A stretch of 64,000 bases of DNA. Origin: Planctomycetota bacterium. Its GTDB lineage: Bacteria; Planctomycetota; Phycisphaerae; WQYP01. The position numbers were made by a program, and so were the translations under genes. The notes under the pieces were generated by a model. That model saw only the letters and a list, made by a program, of their open reading frames with translations, had not been told where the DNA came from and did no database searches. Shown in pieces: positions 50,347-54,640 of the stretch. Positions within the stretch are counted from its first letter, which is position 1. Every line of letters begins with the position of its first letter. The stretch covers positions 1 through 64,000 of the forward strand of contig JAKAVA010000092.1 in NCBI GenBank assembly GCA_021827645.1. The letters run 5' to 3'.

Positions 50347-50475
50347 CTTTTGCGGCAGATCGAATCGCACAAAGGCGGATTGCACGGATGGTTTTTCGCC
50401 GGAGGCGGGAGACGTTTAGATTTGGGACGCAATGTGTAGAGCGGCCCGCAGGGTTATGGTCAAGGAGTGACCCGC

Positions 50476-51273
50476 ATGGCTAAAACTCGAACCACCACGA
50501 CTGCGGTTGCGCAGGACATTAACGAAGTCTGGATCAGCTTCAAGGCGAAGCCTACCGATGCACTTCGTAACTTATTGATGATGGAATATCTTCCGCTGGC
50601 GAAGTACAACGCTGAACGTATTTACGCCAAGTTGCCGGACGAAGTGGAATTGGATGATCTGATTCAAGCCGGCACGTTCGGCCTCAAGGACGCCATTGAA
50701 TCATTTGATCCGGCCCGCGGTGTCAAGTTTGAAACGTATTGTGCACCGCGTATCCGCGGCGCCATCCTCGATGAACTGCGAAATATGGACTGGGTTCCCC
50801 GCCTGGTTCGGAGCCGATCGAGCAAGGTGGATCAGGCCACCCGCCAACTGGAGATGAAACTGGGTCGTCCACCGACCCATGAGGAACTCTCTGCCCACAT
50901 GGGGGTTCCAAAGGATGAGCTGGATAAGATGCTCAAGGACTCCAATGCGGTTTCACAGGTCAGTTTATCACGCAAATATTTTGAATCTGACGGATCGCGG
51001 GACGTTCACGAGGTGGACATTCTCGCAGATAAAACAGCTCCATCCCCCTTGGACGAAATCTTCCGTCGAGATTTCAAGCAACTCATCGCCCGGGGCCTGT
51101 CACGGTCTGAGCAGATGATTCTGTATCTGTATTATTACGAACAACTCACCATGAAGGAAATTGGTGACGCTCTCGAACTTTCAGAATCGCGGGTCAGTCA
51201 GATGCACTCGAGTATCATTTCACGTCTCAAGACGCAACTTGCCAGCCGCGAAAAAGAATTCTTCTCCGATTAG
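50476..51273 (+). CDS. FliA/WhiG-like RNA polymerase sigma factor
   Basis: A 265-residue sigma-70 family protein of the sigma-28 group. Region 2 has DDLIQAGTFGLKDAIESFDPARGVKFETYCAPRIRGAILDELR, followed by DWVPRLVR, the FliA/WhiG signature. Region 3 (RPPTHEELSAHMG) and region 4 (LTMKEIGDALELSESRVSQMHSSI) follow. In other bacteria it drives flagellar or developmental genes; none are near. ATG 50476 with AAGGAG about 8 nt upstream is preferred to GTG 50467. No anti-sigma factor is adjacent. Confidence 0.93.
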   Translation: MAKTRTTTTAVAQDINEVWISFKAKPTDALRNLLMMEYLPLAKYNAERIYAKLPDEVELDDLIQAGTFGLKDAIESFDPARGVKFETYCAPRIRGAILDELRNMDWVPRLVRSRSSKVDQATRQLEMKLGRPPTHEELSAHMGVPKDELDKMLKDSNAVSQVSLSRKYFESDGSRDVHEVDILADKTAPSPLDEIFRRDFKQLIARGLSRSEQMILYLYYYEQLTMKEIGDALELSESRVSQMHSSIISRLKTQLASREKEFFSD

Positions 51274-51610
51274 CCAAAGCATCGGCGGGATTCAGAGTTT
51301 AATTTGATATCCTCCCCGGTGACCATTGCGGGCATTGATCCCATCGTCTTCCAGCCCTATCATCATCTCGCATTCATGAAGACTCATGCATCTTGGCCGT
51401 TAGACTTGTCGCAGGAATTTTAGAATAGATTCGGCCTCTTGCTCGGCGTGGCTTTCCATTTCCAATCGCCGCGAATTTTTCAGAGTGGATGGATCGTCGG
51501 GGCGGGTAACGAAAAAAGGCTTGATCTGCGGGATTGCCGCAGGGATCAAGCCTTGGTATCCGGTGTATCACCTTCCGCAGGGTGACCGATAACCGAACTT
51601 AATTCGGCTC
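51274..51610. other. Intergenic region with the first copy of a direct repeat
   Basis: 337 nt between the sigma factor and the G1 peptidase stop, convergent. Most of its 3' half is the direct repeat 51447-51646, with a strong - strand terminator at 51512-51554. The rest is featureless. Confidence 0.5.
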
Positions 51611-51646
51611 TCAGGCCCGTTTACGCCGAACTAAAAGCAGGGCCGC
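51447..51646. repeat. Direct repeat copy A (200 bp)
   Basis: Nearly identical to 53533-53731 (seven or so substitutions and one 1-nt indel over 200 bp). It covers the last 12 codons of the G1 peptidase gene (36 nt), its terminator and about 100 bp beyond. The two copies flank the G1 peptidase gene in direct orientation. Confidence 0.9.
51512..51554 (-). terminator. Intrinsic terminator of the G1 peptidase gene
   Basis: Read on the - strand: AAGGCTTGATC (complement of 51544-51554) pairs with its partner at 51516-51526; the inner TGCGG/CCGCA (51527-51531, 51537-51541) extends the stem to about 16 bp with a small bulge, followed by a run of six T. A strong terminator 57 nt past the stop. Confidence 0.85.
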
Positions 51647-53191
51647 ACCACCCATTCCCAGCAGCGCCAGCGCCGCGGGTTCCGGCACAGCCGTGACGGA
51701 TATGTCGGTAACATCGGCGGTCAGATCGCCGATGCCGCTGGTATTAAGAAATTCCAAAGTGGCGGTGGAGGCGTCGGCAATGAAACTGAAGCTTTCATCA
51801 GTGAAATCACTTTGGGAGAGTGTAGTATTGATAAGGTCATTTAATGTGGTACCGCTGCTGCCGAGTACCGATGCCGTTAAATCGACGGAAGCATCCCCGT
51901 TGCGAGCGGCGGCAGCGTAGGATACGAGGTACTTCTGGCCGATGGTAAGGTCGGTAAGCTGTTGCGAGATGCCGTTGCCCGCACCTTGCAGGAAGGCATA
52001 AGTCACCGAGCCGGCATTTGACGGGCCGAAGGGGCTCGAACTCAGGCGTGTTCCATCCCCATTAACTCCGATTCCGCCGGTGCTGCTGGGAGCGAGAATT
52101 TCAGTCCAATCCGTGGGTGCCGACGGATTAGGAGTTGCACTGGTGGGGGTAGTATGGGCCCCCGAGTCGTCATAGCCATTATTTCCGCTATAAAAGGAGG
52201 CATTGGCGGTAAAATTGCCGTTGATGGCGTAATTGTTTACGGGTGCTTGCGGCACGGGAAACGAGTTCGTGCCGCTCGCCACGTTGAATGCCGTTCCCTC
52301 GGACGAGAGCGTACTAGGCTTTGCCGAGAGTTTACCCGTACCCGAACTCAAATTGATCTGGTAGGCCGTTACTCCGTTTAAGCCGGCTAAGCCGGTTATG
52401 GTGCTGGTTTGACTGCTGGAACCGGTTGCCAGCGTGGCAAAGGAGTCAGTGAAAGTTGCCGAGCCGAAGTTGGCTAGAGGCAAAATTCCGTTGTTGGATG
52501 GTGCCTCTGTAACCCATTCGGCGGAATGGAGGTCAACACCGGTTGTGCTGGTGTTGTCCTGATAGGTTTCCCCGGTGGTAGTATCCTGCATGGCAAGGGT
52601 GAAGTCTTGACGTCCACTGGTGGAGTTGATACCGGTATAGGTGACCGATGCGGTGATTTTATCGCCGGGATTGACCGTAAATCGTGAAATGTAGCTCGAT
52701 CCTGCCGGATACAGTTCGGTCCAGGCGTAGTAAGAGGCCCCAGAACTGTGAAAGTAATCTGCCTCGACGCCCAACTGTTCGACAGTAGGTGAGTTGAAAC
52801 CATCCAAGCCTACCCAAAAAGCTGCGTAAGTGCCGGATGAGGTATCCGGGGAAGCGGTTACCGTCGGAACCGTCCACGAGCCGACCACCGAGGTGAAGGT
52901 TGATCCGCTGGGTGCGGTTAGGGCATAGCCGGCCCAATTGCTCGTGGTCCTTGGGGTCGGAGTTGATGCGAAAGTATTGGCTGCACTCAGTGCTGCGGCG
53001 CACAGAACTGCCCCTGCCAGGACGTTCCGAAACTGTCGGTGTTCTGCTCTCCCGGTTGTTCCGGCAGTTGGCGTGGCGTGCTTTTTACCCGCGCGATGCC
53101 CGCTGCAATGTTCGGGGCAATGTGATCCGGTTTCTGAACCGTTCAGATTGCCGAAAAGCGATTGGATCTGTGATAACACCTTTTTGCTCAT
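51611..53191 (-). CDS. G1-family (eqolisin) glutamic peptidase with PEP-CTERM anchor
   Basis: A 526-residue secreted protein in three parts. After an unusually long N-region, the signal helix is NVLAGAVLCAAALSAANTFA (about 57-75). The peptidase G1 domain (about 80-245) contains NWAGYAL, GSWTVPTV, AAFWVGLDG, and the catalytic pair Q139 (VEQLGVEAD) and E225 (HSAEWVTEAP), matching Q53 and E136 of scytalidoglutamic peptidase. A second beta-sandwich-like domain (about 330-495) follows, then VPEPAALALLGMGGAALLLVRRKRA, the exosortase sorting signal. G1 peptidases work at acidic pH. The ATG at 53191 has AGGGG 8 nt upstream; a longer frame to 53305 lacks one. Confidence 0.9.
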   Translation of the reverse strand: MSKKVLSQIQSLFGNLNGSETGSHCPEHCSGHRAGKKHATPTAGTTGRAEHRQFRNVLAGAVLCAAALSAANTFASTPTPRTTSNWAGYALTAPSGSTFTSVVGSWTVPTVTASPDTSSGTYAAFWVGLDGFNSPTVEQLGVEADYFHSSGASYYAWTELYPAGSSYISRFTVNPGDKITASVTYTGINSTSGRQDFTLAMQDTTTGETYQDNTSTTGVDLHSAEWVTEAPSNNGILPLANFGSATFTDSFATLATGSSSQTSTITGLAGLNGVTAYQINLSSGTGKLSAKPSTLSSEGTAFNVASGTNSFPVPQAPVNNYAINGNFTANASFYSGNNGYDDSGAHTTPTSATPNPSAPTDWTEILAPSSTGGIGVNGDGTRLSSSPFGPSNAGSVTYAFLQGAGNGISQQLTDLTIGQKYLVSYAAAARNGDASVDLTASVLGSSGTTLNDLINTTLSQSDFTDESFSFIADASTATLEFLNTSGIGDLTADVTDISVTAVPEPAALALLGMGGAALLLVRRKRA

Positions 53192-53343
53192 ACCCGTATC
53201 CCCTGAAAAGCGCACGCCGGGATGAAAAATCCGGCGAACCGCAATCTTTGCCACCCGGCGCACACGGAAACATTCCGCAGTGATCCATGGCGGCGTAAGT
53301 CGCACTTTCTTGTAGGGGGATTTATGGGGCCTTGCTCACTCTT

Positions 53344-53402
53344 GCCCTACCCCCCTTCCGGCCGCTCAATTTTGTGAGAGACCGGTTAACGGCAGTTTTA
53401 CC
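53344..53402. repeat. Upstream block copy A
   Basis: 59 nt beginning GCCCTACCCCC and ending TTTTACC, about 150 nt upstream of the G1 peptidase start. It matches 53745-53803 at roughly three quarters of positions by eye, with no gaps. Confidence 0.65.
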
Positions 53403-53597
53403 TAGATGTAAAACTATCGTTATTGATAACTCTTTTAAATTCAGATGTCAAGCGTGATCTGAATTTTTATTAGCCAGAGTCGAAAGCCGTCTCGTATATC
53501 GGACGTGCTAAGGGTGTGCTGTGCCAAATATACGTGGCTTTCCATTTCCAATCGCCGCGAATTTTTCAGCGTGGATGGATCGTCGTGGCGGGTAACG

Positions 53598-53640
53598 AAA
53601 AAAGGCTTGATCTGCGGGGTCGCCGCAGGGATCAAGCCTT
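53598..53640 (-). terminator. Terminator in repeat copy B
   Basis: Same hairpin as 51512-51554 (AAGGCTTGATC/GATCAAGCCTT with inner stem) followed by a T-run on the - strand. It now lies upstream of the intact peptidase gene and would stop - strand transcripts coming from RDD-gene direction. Confidence 0.75.
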
Positions 53641-53695
53641 GGTATCCGGTGTTCACCTTCCGCAGGGTGACCGATAACCGAACTGAATTCGGCTC

Positions 53696-53731
53696 TCAGG
53701 CCCGTTTACGCCGAACTAGAAGCAGGGCCGC
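53696..53731 (-). pseudogene. 3' relic of a second PEP-CTERM peptidase gene
   Basis: The 12 codons encode AALLLVRRKRA and a TGA, identical to the C-terminus of the G1 peptidase. Immediately 5' of it (on the - strand) is a non-coding block homologous to the peptidase upstream region, so the rest of the gene has been deleted. Confidence 0.7.
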
Positions 53732-53744
53732 GGCGCACAAAGTG

Positions 53745-53803
53745 GCCCTACCCCCGCGCCGGCCGTTCGATTTTGCGAGAGACTCTTTGGCTGCTCTTTT
53801 ACC
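53745..53803. repeat. Upstream block copy B
   Basis: 59 nt homologous to 53344-53402. In copy B it lies only 13 nt from the 3' coding relic; in copy A it lies about 150 nt before an intact ORF of over 1.5 kb. The difference marks the deletion. Confidence 0.6.
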
Positions 53804-53875
53804 CGAAGATGGCGGGGCGTGCGACAAGAACTCCCGCAGATCCGAATGTCTGACGTGACTTGCGCATCGAGCACT

Positions 53876-54640
53876 TCAGCCCTTGAACCACCCCTCCTGA
53901 AGCACCATCGCGATATTGATAATGTATTGCTCCGCACTCAGATGCTCATATTGATCGGCCTTGAGCTGGAGTATTTTCTGGATGCAGTCCGCGGCGAGTT
54001 CAAAGAGTTCTTCACGGGCGGAAACCTCGAGCTGATCTCGCCGCAGGGCCAGATCAATGATGACATCGCGATGCGCGACGCCGATGCGCTCCAGTATGCG
54101 GGCGCGGATCGCCGGATCTGCCAGAAAGCTGTTGTCACGTCGTCGCATTTCACGGTTGATGGCGGGGGGCAGCACCGTGCGCCGCTGCCGAATCACCACC
54201 GTCTGGGCGGCAAAATCACCGATCCTCCGATGCCACCGGTCCGCGAGCGCCACCAAACCGCCCAGCAGCATGAGTTCCGGTAGAAAATCCACCAGCCGGG
54301 CCATGTTGCGGATGATGACTGCACTGGCGGCGAGCCTTCGTCCATCGGCGTCGATCACTTCCAAGCCCATAGCTTTTTTGCCCGGCGTTCGCCCCCGAAG
54401 ATAGATTTCGAAAATGGGAAAGTAGCCTACGATGATGAGAAAGGTGCCGAGTGTCAGGAGAACAAATGCCAACAGCTGCGAGATGAGGGCTAAGGTGGAT
54501 GAGATGATGAGGACGAAGCCAATCATGCAAATTACAATAATGGCGGCATCGATGATAAATGCCAGGGCCCGGGAGTATATTCCGGCAAGCTCAAATTGCA
54601 GGGTGATCATTTCGGGCGTCGTGATGGTGTAGCGGCGCAT
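53876..54640 (-). CDS. RDD-family membrane protein
   Basis: A 254-residue protein with the RDD domain in the N-terminal half: LAGIYSRALAFIIDAAIIVICMIGFVLII, then a second membrane segment, and RGRTPGKKAMGLEVIDADGRRL with VIIRNMARLVDFLPELMLLGGLVALADRWHRRIGDFAAQTVVIR. The C-terminal 90 residues are soluble and helical. RDD proteins act in transport or stress, mostly of unknown function. The gene is divergent from psd 70 nt away. Confidence 0.88.
   Translation of the reverse strand: MRRYTITTPEMITLQFELAGIYSRALAFIIDAAIIVICMIGFVLIISSTLALISQLLAFVLLTLGTFLIIVGYFPIFEIYLRGRTPGKKAMGLEVIDADGRRLAASAVIIRNMARLVDFLPELMLLGGLVALADRWHRRIGDFAAQTVVIRQRRTVLPPAINREMRRRDNSFLADPAIRARILERIGVAHRDVIIDLALRRDQLEVSAREELFELAADCIQKILQLKADQYEHLSAEQYIINIAMVLQEGWFKG

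Follow-up and report, generated by a model that had tools for sequence, protein, structure and literature searches.

A probable body-less remnant of a tandem PEP-CTERM gene pair beside an intact G1 peptidase gene in a Planctomycetota genome

Introduction

The PEP-CTERM genes, which have long upstream regions, are characterized by rapid paralogous expansion with frequent duplication and loss, as was concluded from proteins by Haft et al. 2006 (PMC1569441), whose text does not mention recombination or near-identical DNA ends around divergent bodies. The quick turnover of exosortase-sorted proteins between close relatives is known, and its mechanism at the DNA level is undescribed in the literature that could be searched. 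A partial literature search found no paper combining PEP-CTERM with gene conversion, which is weak evidence of novelty. Recombination of this general kind has been described in other systems. In rhs genes with displaced C-terminal tips (PMC2935791), conserved segments recombine, another part of the protein is replaced, and dissociated fragments lie beside the intact gene. In the surface antigens of the msp2/p44 type, which are diversified by gene conversion (PMC11946796), recombination separates the histories of the constant and the variable parts. A further class is formed by tandem-duplication remnants, i.e., pseudogene fragments.

Here we describe a locus that resembles each of these systems in part. 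It lies in a 64-kb stretch of DNA, the whole of which was analysed and is called the window, and it consists of an intact peptidase gene (gene A) and a neighbouring segment at 53533-53811 (B). With the exosortase substrates (PMC1569441), the locus shares a PEP-CTERM tail on gene A and an exosortase in the genome. With tandem-duplication remnants it shares a partial, direct second copy beside an intact gene, in which the upstream and 3' parts are kept and the frame is lost.

Results

The product of gene A belongs to the Peptidase_A4 (MEROPS G1) family, since its domain scores 123.6 bits against the curated Pfam cut-off of 22.3. Its C-terminal tail reaches 22.4 bits (cut-off 20.7), which together with an exosortase in the same genome (G000:C67, 173.6 bits) places it among the PEP-CTERM proteins; 34 PEP-CTERM tails were detected in this genome at E values up to 0.1. 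The best PDB relatives are aspergillopepsin II and scytalidopepsin B. In the alignment with 1y43, the Q of VEQLGV pairs with LQTGV and the E of AEWVTE with AEWIVE, and we take these Gln and Glu to be the catalytic residues of G1 peptidases. Residues 320-526 (51614-52235), which precede the tail, show a weak likeness to DUF642 and match many PEP-CTERM proteins that have no peptidase domain. As this C-terminal region is common to such proteins, gene A looks chimeric from its domain make-up.

Read along the minus strand, the locus begins with an RDD-family gene (stop at 53876), followed by a block similar to the upstream region of gene A (53811-53745), a 13-nt junction (53744-53732) and the 3' block of B (53731-53533). 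After a 130-nt spacer come the upstream block of A (53408-53344), a leader, gene A itself (53191-51611) and its own 3' block (51646-51447). The features are listed in Table 1.

Table 1. Coordinates of the features of the peptidase locus within the window.
Feature	Position	Strand	Basis
3' block of A: last 11 codons and stop, leader, terminator, 65 nt beyond	51447..51646	-	193/200 vs 53533-53731
Terminator of gene A, hairpin-plus-U	51512..51554	-	fold z -5.6
Gene A, intact: Peptidase_A4 (MEROPS G1) domain, C-terminal region of ~200 aa, PEP-CTERM tail	51611..53191	-	Pfam PF01828 E 1e-35, PF07589 E 1e-4
Signal-peptide codons of gene A (VLCAAAL), resembled by the scar junction	52988..53013	-	20/26 vs 53723-53748
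Upstream (leader) block of A	53344..53408	-	50/67 aligned columns with 53745-53811; core 33/39
Candidate promoter of gene A, TTGACA-17-TATCAA	53423..53451	-	by eye; absent from consensus-scan list
3' block of B: 11 tail codons, stop (53696-53698), terminator	53533..53731	-	alignment to A
Terminator of B, now 3' of the RDD gene on the same strand	53598..53640	-	fold z -5.6
Scar junction CACTTTGTGCGCC; with tail codons reads TLCAAALLLVRRKRA and stop	53732..53744	-	sequence reading
Upstream block of B, decayed, hairpin of A's block lost	53745..53811	-	alignment to A, folding
RDD-family membrane protein gene, directly upstream of B	53876..54640	-	Pfam PF06271 E 1e-17

The initial annotation had reported a direct repeat of about 200 bp flanking the peptidase gene at about 96% identity, and pairwise alignment of 51447-51646 with 53533-53731 bears this out with 193/200 identical positions, six mismatches and a single 1-nt gap. 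It had also held that copy B keeps C-terminal peptidase codons and the terminator, which the alignment makes precise: the shared block comprises 11 codons and a stop (AALLLVRRKRA), a leader of ~55 nt, the strong hairpin-plus-U terminator and 65 nt past it. The sole difference within the tail codons is synonymous (TTA/CTA), and the longest exact run common to both blocks is 37 nt. The two blocks are direct repeats 2086 nt apart, so recombination between them could also delete gene A. Likewise, the 13-nt junction of the same annotation and its 59-bp upstream homology (53344-53402 vs 53745-53803) both hold. The upstream blocks are ~76% identical (14/59 differences), and their 39-nt core (33/39) has a local score of 48, which exceeds the highest scores in 5000 dinucleotide shuffles (29) and elsewhere in the window (24). 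Toward the promoter, beyond 53811, the A/B similarity is not significant (p 0.28 and 0.57), and we rejected an upstream homology that reaches as far as the promoter. The annotation had finally noted that the 3' parts are much more alike than the upstream blocks and had named gene conversion; the contrast of 6/199 against 14/59 differences is indeed significant (Fisher p = 3.5e-6), and the 65 nt past the terminator, with 2 differences, also stand apart from the upstream block (p = 8e-4).

The upstream block folds in A (z -4.1) and not in B (z 0.35), and its core is absent from 60 relatives, which points to sequence homology rather than to a conserved structured RNA element. The latter was therefore rejected, as was a known RNA element, there being no Rfam match above threshold.

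B stays in frame across its junction and reads TLCAAALLLVRRKRA-stop, i.e., LCAAAL-LLVRRKRA-stop, so that codons resembling a signal peptide run into the tail frame. The junction region 53723-53748 matches the signal-peptide codons of A at 20/26 positions, a value reached by none of 500 shuffles of the gene (maximum 18). With the letters of the 3' block left out, the match is 13/17, and 18/500 shuffles are as good (p about 0.04). The junction element GGCGCACA has an equally long copy once in the leader of A. Since the 20/26 is partly a chance likeness of two AAL runs, the 13/17 is weak and GGCGCACA recurs in the leader, the junction match by itself is no more than suggestive. The in-frame reading fits what is expected of a deletion that joins signal-peptide codons to tail codons via short homology, and the scar probably fuses a signal peptide to the PEP-CTERM tail. 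The RDD frame stays open past its TGA for 59 codons up to the PEP-CTERM tail of B (53696-53878), probably by chance.

Each of the two blocks occurs at two places only in the genome. The 3' block is absent from 396 other genomes of the class, and apart from these two pairs, direct repeats that reach 40 nt are absent from the whole window. The initial annotation had named a terminator-plus-C-terminus repeat dispersed at unrelated loci as the sign of a mobile repeat; what was found is two adjacent places, no paired terminal inverted repeats around the blocks and no plasmid match for the repeat, and we rejected a dispersed element of the MITE or IS-like type.

The peptidase locus is apparently specific to this genome. 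In the congeners G002 and G003, a small ORF and then secA come after RDD, with no peptidase between, and in the congener G001 a different gene follows RDD. Within 50467-54640 the synteny is broken, as RDD and the sigma factor (protein identity ~91-95%) are found on separate contigs in the congeners. The nearest relatives of the peptidase share 40-50% identity across the domain and occupy other loci, and the collections of genome contigs and viral contigs that were searched yielded no relative of it. A comparison with strains carrying two intact copies, which the annotation had proposed, was made with the relatives searched: there was no orthologous locus and none with two intact copies here, and an orthologous tandem locus in them was rejected.

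Near-identical ends around dissimilar bodies recur among other PEP-CTERM genes. In a tandem pair on contig C65 of the same genome (L148), the 3' ends are 96% identical over 225 nt and the 5' ends 77% over 319 nt, and body similarity is weak (39% over 114 aa, E 2e-4). On contig C41, a gene (L162) matches this pair at 92-93% identity in the 3' end and at 83-91% in the signal region, with no detectable body similarity. The tail codons and 3' flanks of the trio (L148:1602-4600, G000:C65; L162:446-1811, G000:C41) are near identical, the C65 pair has an identical 300-nt stretch from the stop codons into the 3' flank, and the region around it (L148:800-5250) is dense in interspersed repeats of type CGCAGAGGTAACGAAGGTACGCAGAGG. 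In the relative G041, a pair in L177 is ~93-98% alike upstream and 97% in the tail, with bodies 44% identical. As its upstream ends are as alike as its 3' ends, homogenisation is not always on the 3' side. In the relative G002, a pair in L178 has tails 99% and bodies 32% identical.

A tandem array of four genes in G041 (L171) shares intergenic regions and has no mutually detectable body similarity. Between its first two genes lies a 92-codon frame (L171:2346-2624, G041:C32) in which a linker of 35 residues connects a signal peptide to a PEP-CTERM tail; on this reading it is an independent unit without a body that has decayed less than B. Sharing of a 3' end with another gene (at least 80 nt at no less than 80% identity) was found in 11/65 PEP-CTERM genes against 1/185 other genes in the same DNA (p = 1.8e-6), fractions that are not genome-wide rates, as the compared loci were picked around PEP-CTERM tails and clusters; the lone other gene borders the L171 array. 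PEP-CTERM pairs without such constant ends exist as well (L152, L157), so the pattern is not universal.

Discussion

We conclude, with a probability of roughly 0.6, that A and B go back to an older tandem pair of genes for PEP-CTERM surface proteins, in which A survived and B decayed into a unit without a body, and that recombination homogenised the 3' end of B. In B, the upstream block, junction, tail and terminator follow in direct order beside the intact gene that has the same parts. In a plain tandem-duplication remnant, all duplicated parts are expected to diverge equally, and they do not here: the 3' end has diverged by 3% and the upstream part by 24%, so that one duplication date is insufficient and a later homogenisation of the 3' end is likelier. 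Selection on the terminator could keep the hairpin, but neither the tail codons nor the 65 nt beyond, which is why we prefer an older duplication with later 3' homogenisation.

The course of events may have begun with a tandem duplication of the unit formed by the upstream region, signal peptide, body, PEP-CTERM tail and terminator. The body of B would then have been deleted, with signal-peptide codons (AAL) joined to tail codons (AALLL) via short homology, as the junction suggests, and a second loss must be assumed for the leader between the upstream block and the signal peptide (334 nt in A). Gene conversion or an equivalent process would subsequently have kept the 3' ends at 97% identity, while the upstream blocks drifted to 76%. 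The terminator of B now probably ends RDD transcripts too.

The initial annotation had proposed a tandem duplication followed by loss of the second peptidase frame. The order and orientation of the unit beside A uphold the duplication, and the G1 identity of the lost frame does not follow from B. Many unrelated proteins carry PEP-CTERM tails, and between 53731 and 53745 no peptidase-domain sequence survives. The lost body was probably a peptidase, as the neighbouring gene makes plausible, though B does not demonstrate it.

A single recent tandem duplication, after which most of the second frame was deleted, the 3' block was kept by selection as the RDD terminator and the upstream block decayed, would also account for the order and orientation of the parts and for an intact terminator in B, 3' of RDD on the same strand. 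We regard it as unlikely, for terminator selection leaves unexplained both the near-identity of defunct tail codons, third positions included, and the 2 differences in 65 nt past the terminator, and the same 3'-end likeness occurs elsewhere between genes whose bodies are only distantly related. In another explanation, the tail plus terminator is a self-standing copied module that B received 3' of RDD, the upstream block being the trace of a different, older gene. A sister module does exist in the same genome, twice on C65 and once, around an unrelated body, on C41; ends of this type can therefore move without the tandem duplication of a whole gene. We nevertheless consider this origin of B distinctly improbable: the A/B module has just two copies, adjacent and in direct order, the upstream block beside B matches that of A and nothing else, the junction is in frame with signal-like codons, and the C65/C41 trio has its 5' ends in common too.

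That B is functional by itself, either as a short transcript with the peptidase 3' end or through a 43-codon peptide that starts at TTG 53827 and ends in the tail, appears very improbable. Its strong terminator, the frame open from the RDD stop to the tail stop and a GGGAG ahead of the TTG would suit such a function, but its upstream block has lost the fold seen in A, the promoter homology is not significant, no Rfam family matches and the relatives searched gave no sign of conservation. Least credible of all is an artefact that arose when this contig was assembled from a metagenome. The genome is a draft of 119 contigs, but the 3' blocks carry seven scattered differences, every flank differs, and with a longest exact shared run of only 37 nt such an artefact can hardly be expected.

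The scar as such is an ordinary one, and the interest lies in the constant-ends pattern. The comparisons suggest that PEP-CTERM genes swap, duplicate and lose their middles through recombination. We tentatively propose, at somewhat less than even odds, that in this planctomycete-like class PEP-CTERM genes form families whose constant ends, i.e., the upstream and signal-peptide part and the tail and terminator part, are held alike in DNA by recombination as the bodies diverge, are swapped or drop out; the body-less units at 53533-53811 and L171:2346-2624 would be by-products or landing sites of this process. If constant ends drive turnover by recombination, surface-protein repertoires in these bacteria can change as bodies are swapped or deleted between a start and an anchor that stay fixed. 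Units without a body would then be an expected by-product, and their count per genome would measure the rate.

Compared with the known systems, the locus departs from tandem-duplication remnants in that the two ends of B differ strongly in divergence, which misfits a single duplication date. The msp2/p44-type antigens (PMC11946796) offer a functional parallel only, because the units described here look like complete genes with their own ends, and neither a silent archive nor a single expression site was observed. In mechanism, rhs genes with their displaced tips (PMC2935791) come closest among the described systems, but only one end is constant there and two are here. The part that stays the same in rhs is the N-terminal core, and orphan tips persist; in the present case the two ends resemble each other, the variable part is the middle, and what is left over is a unit that lacks it.
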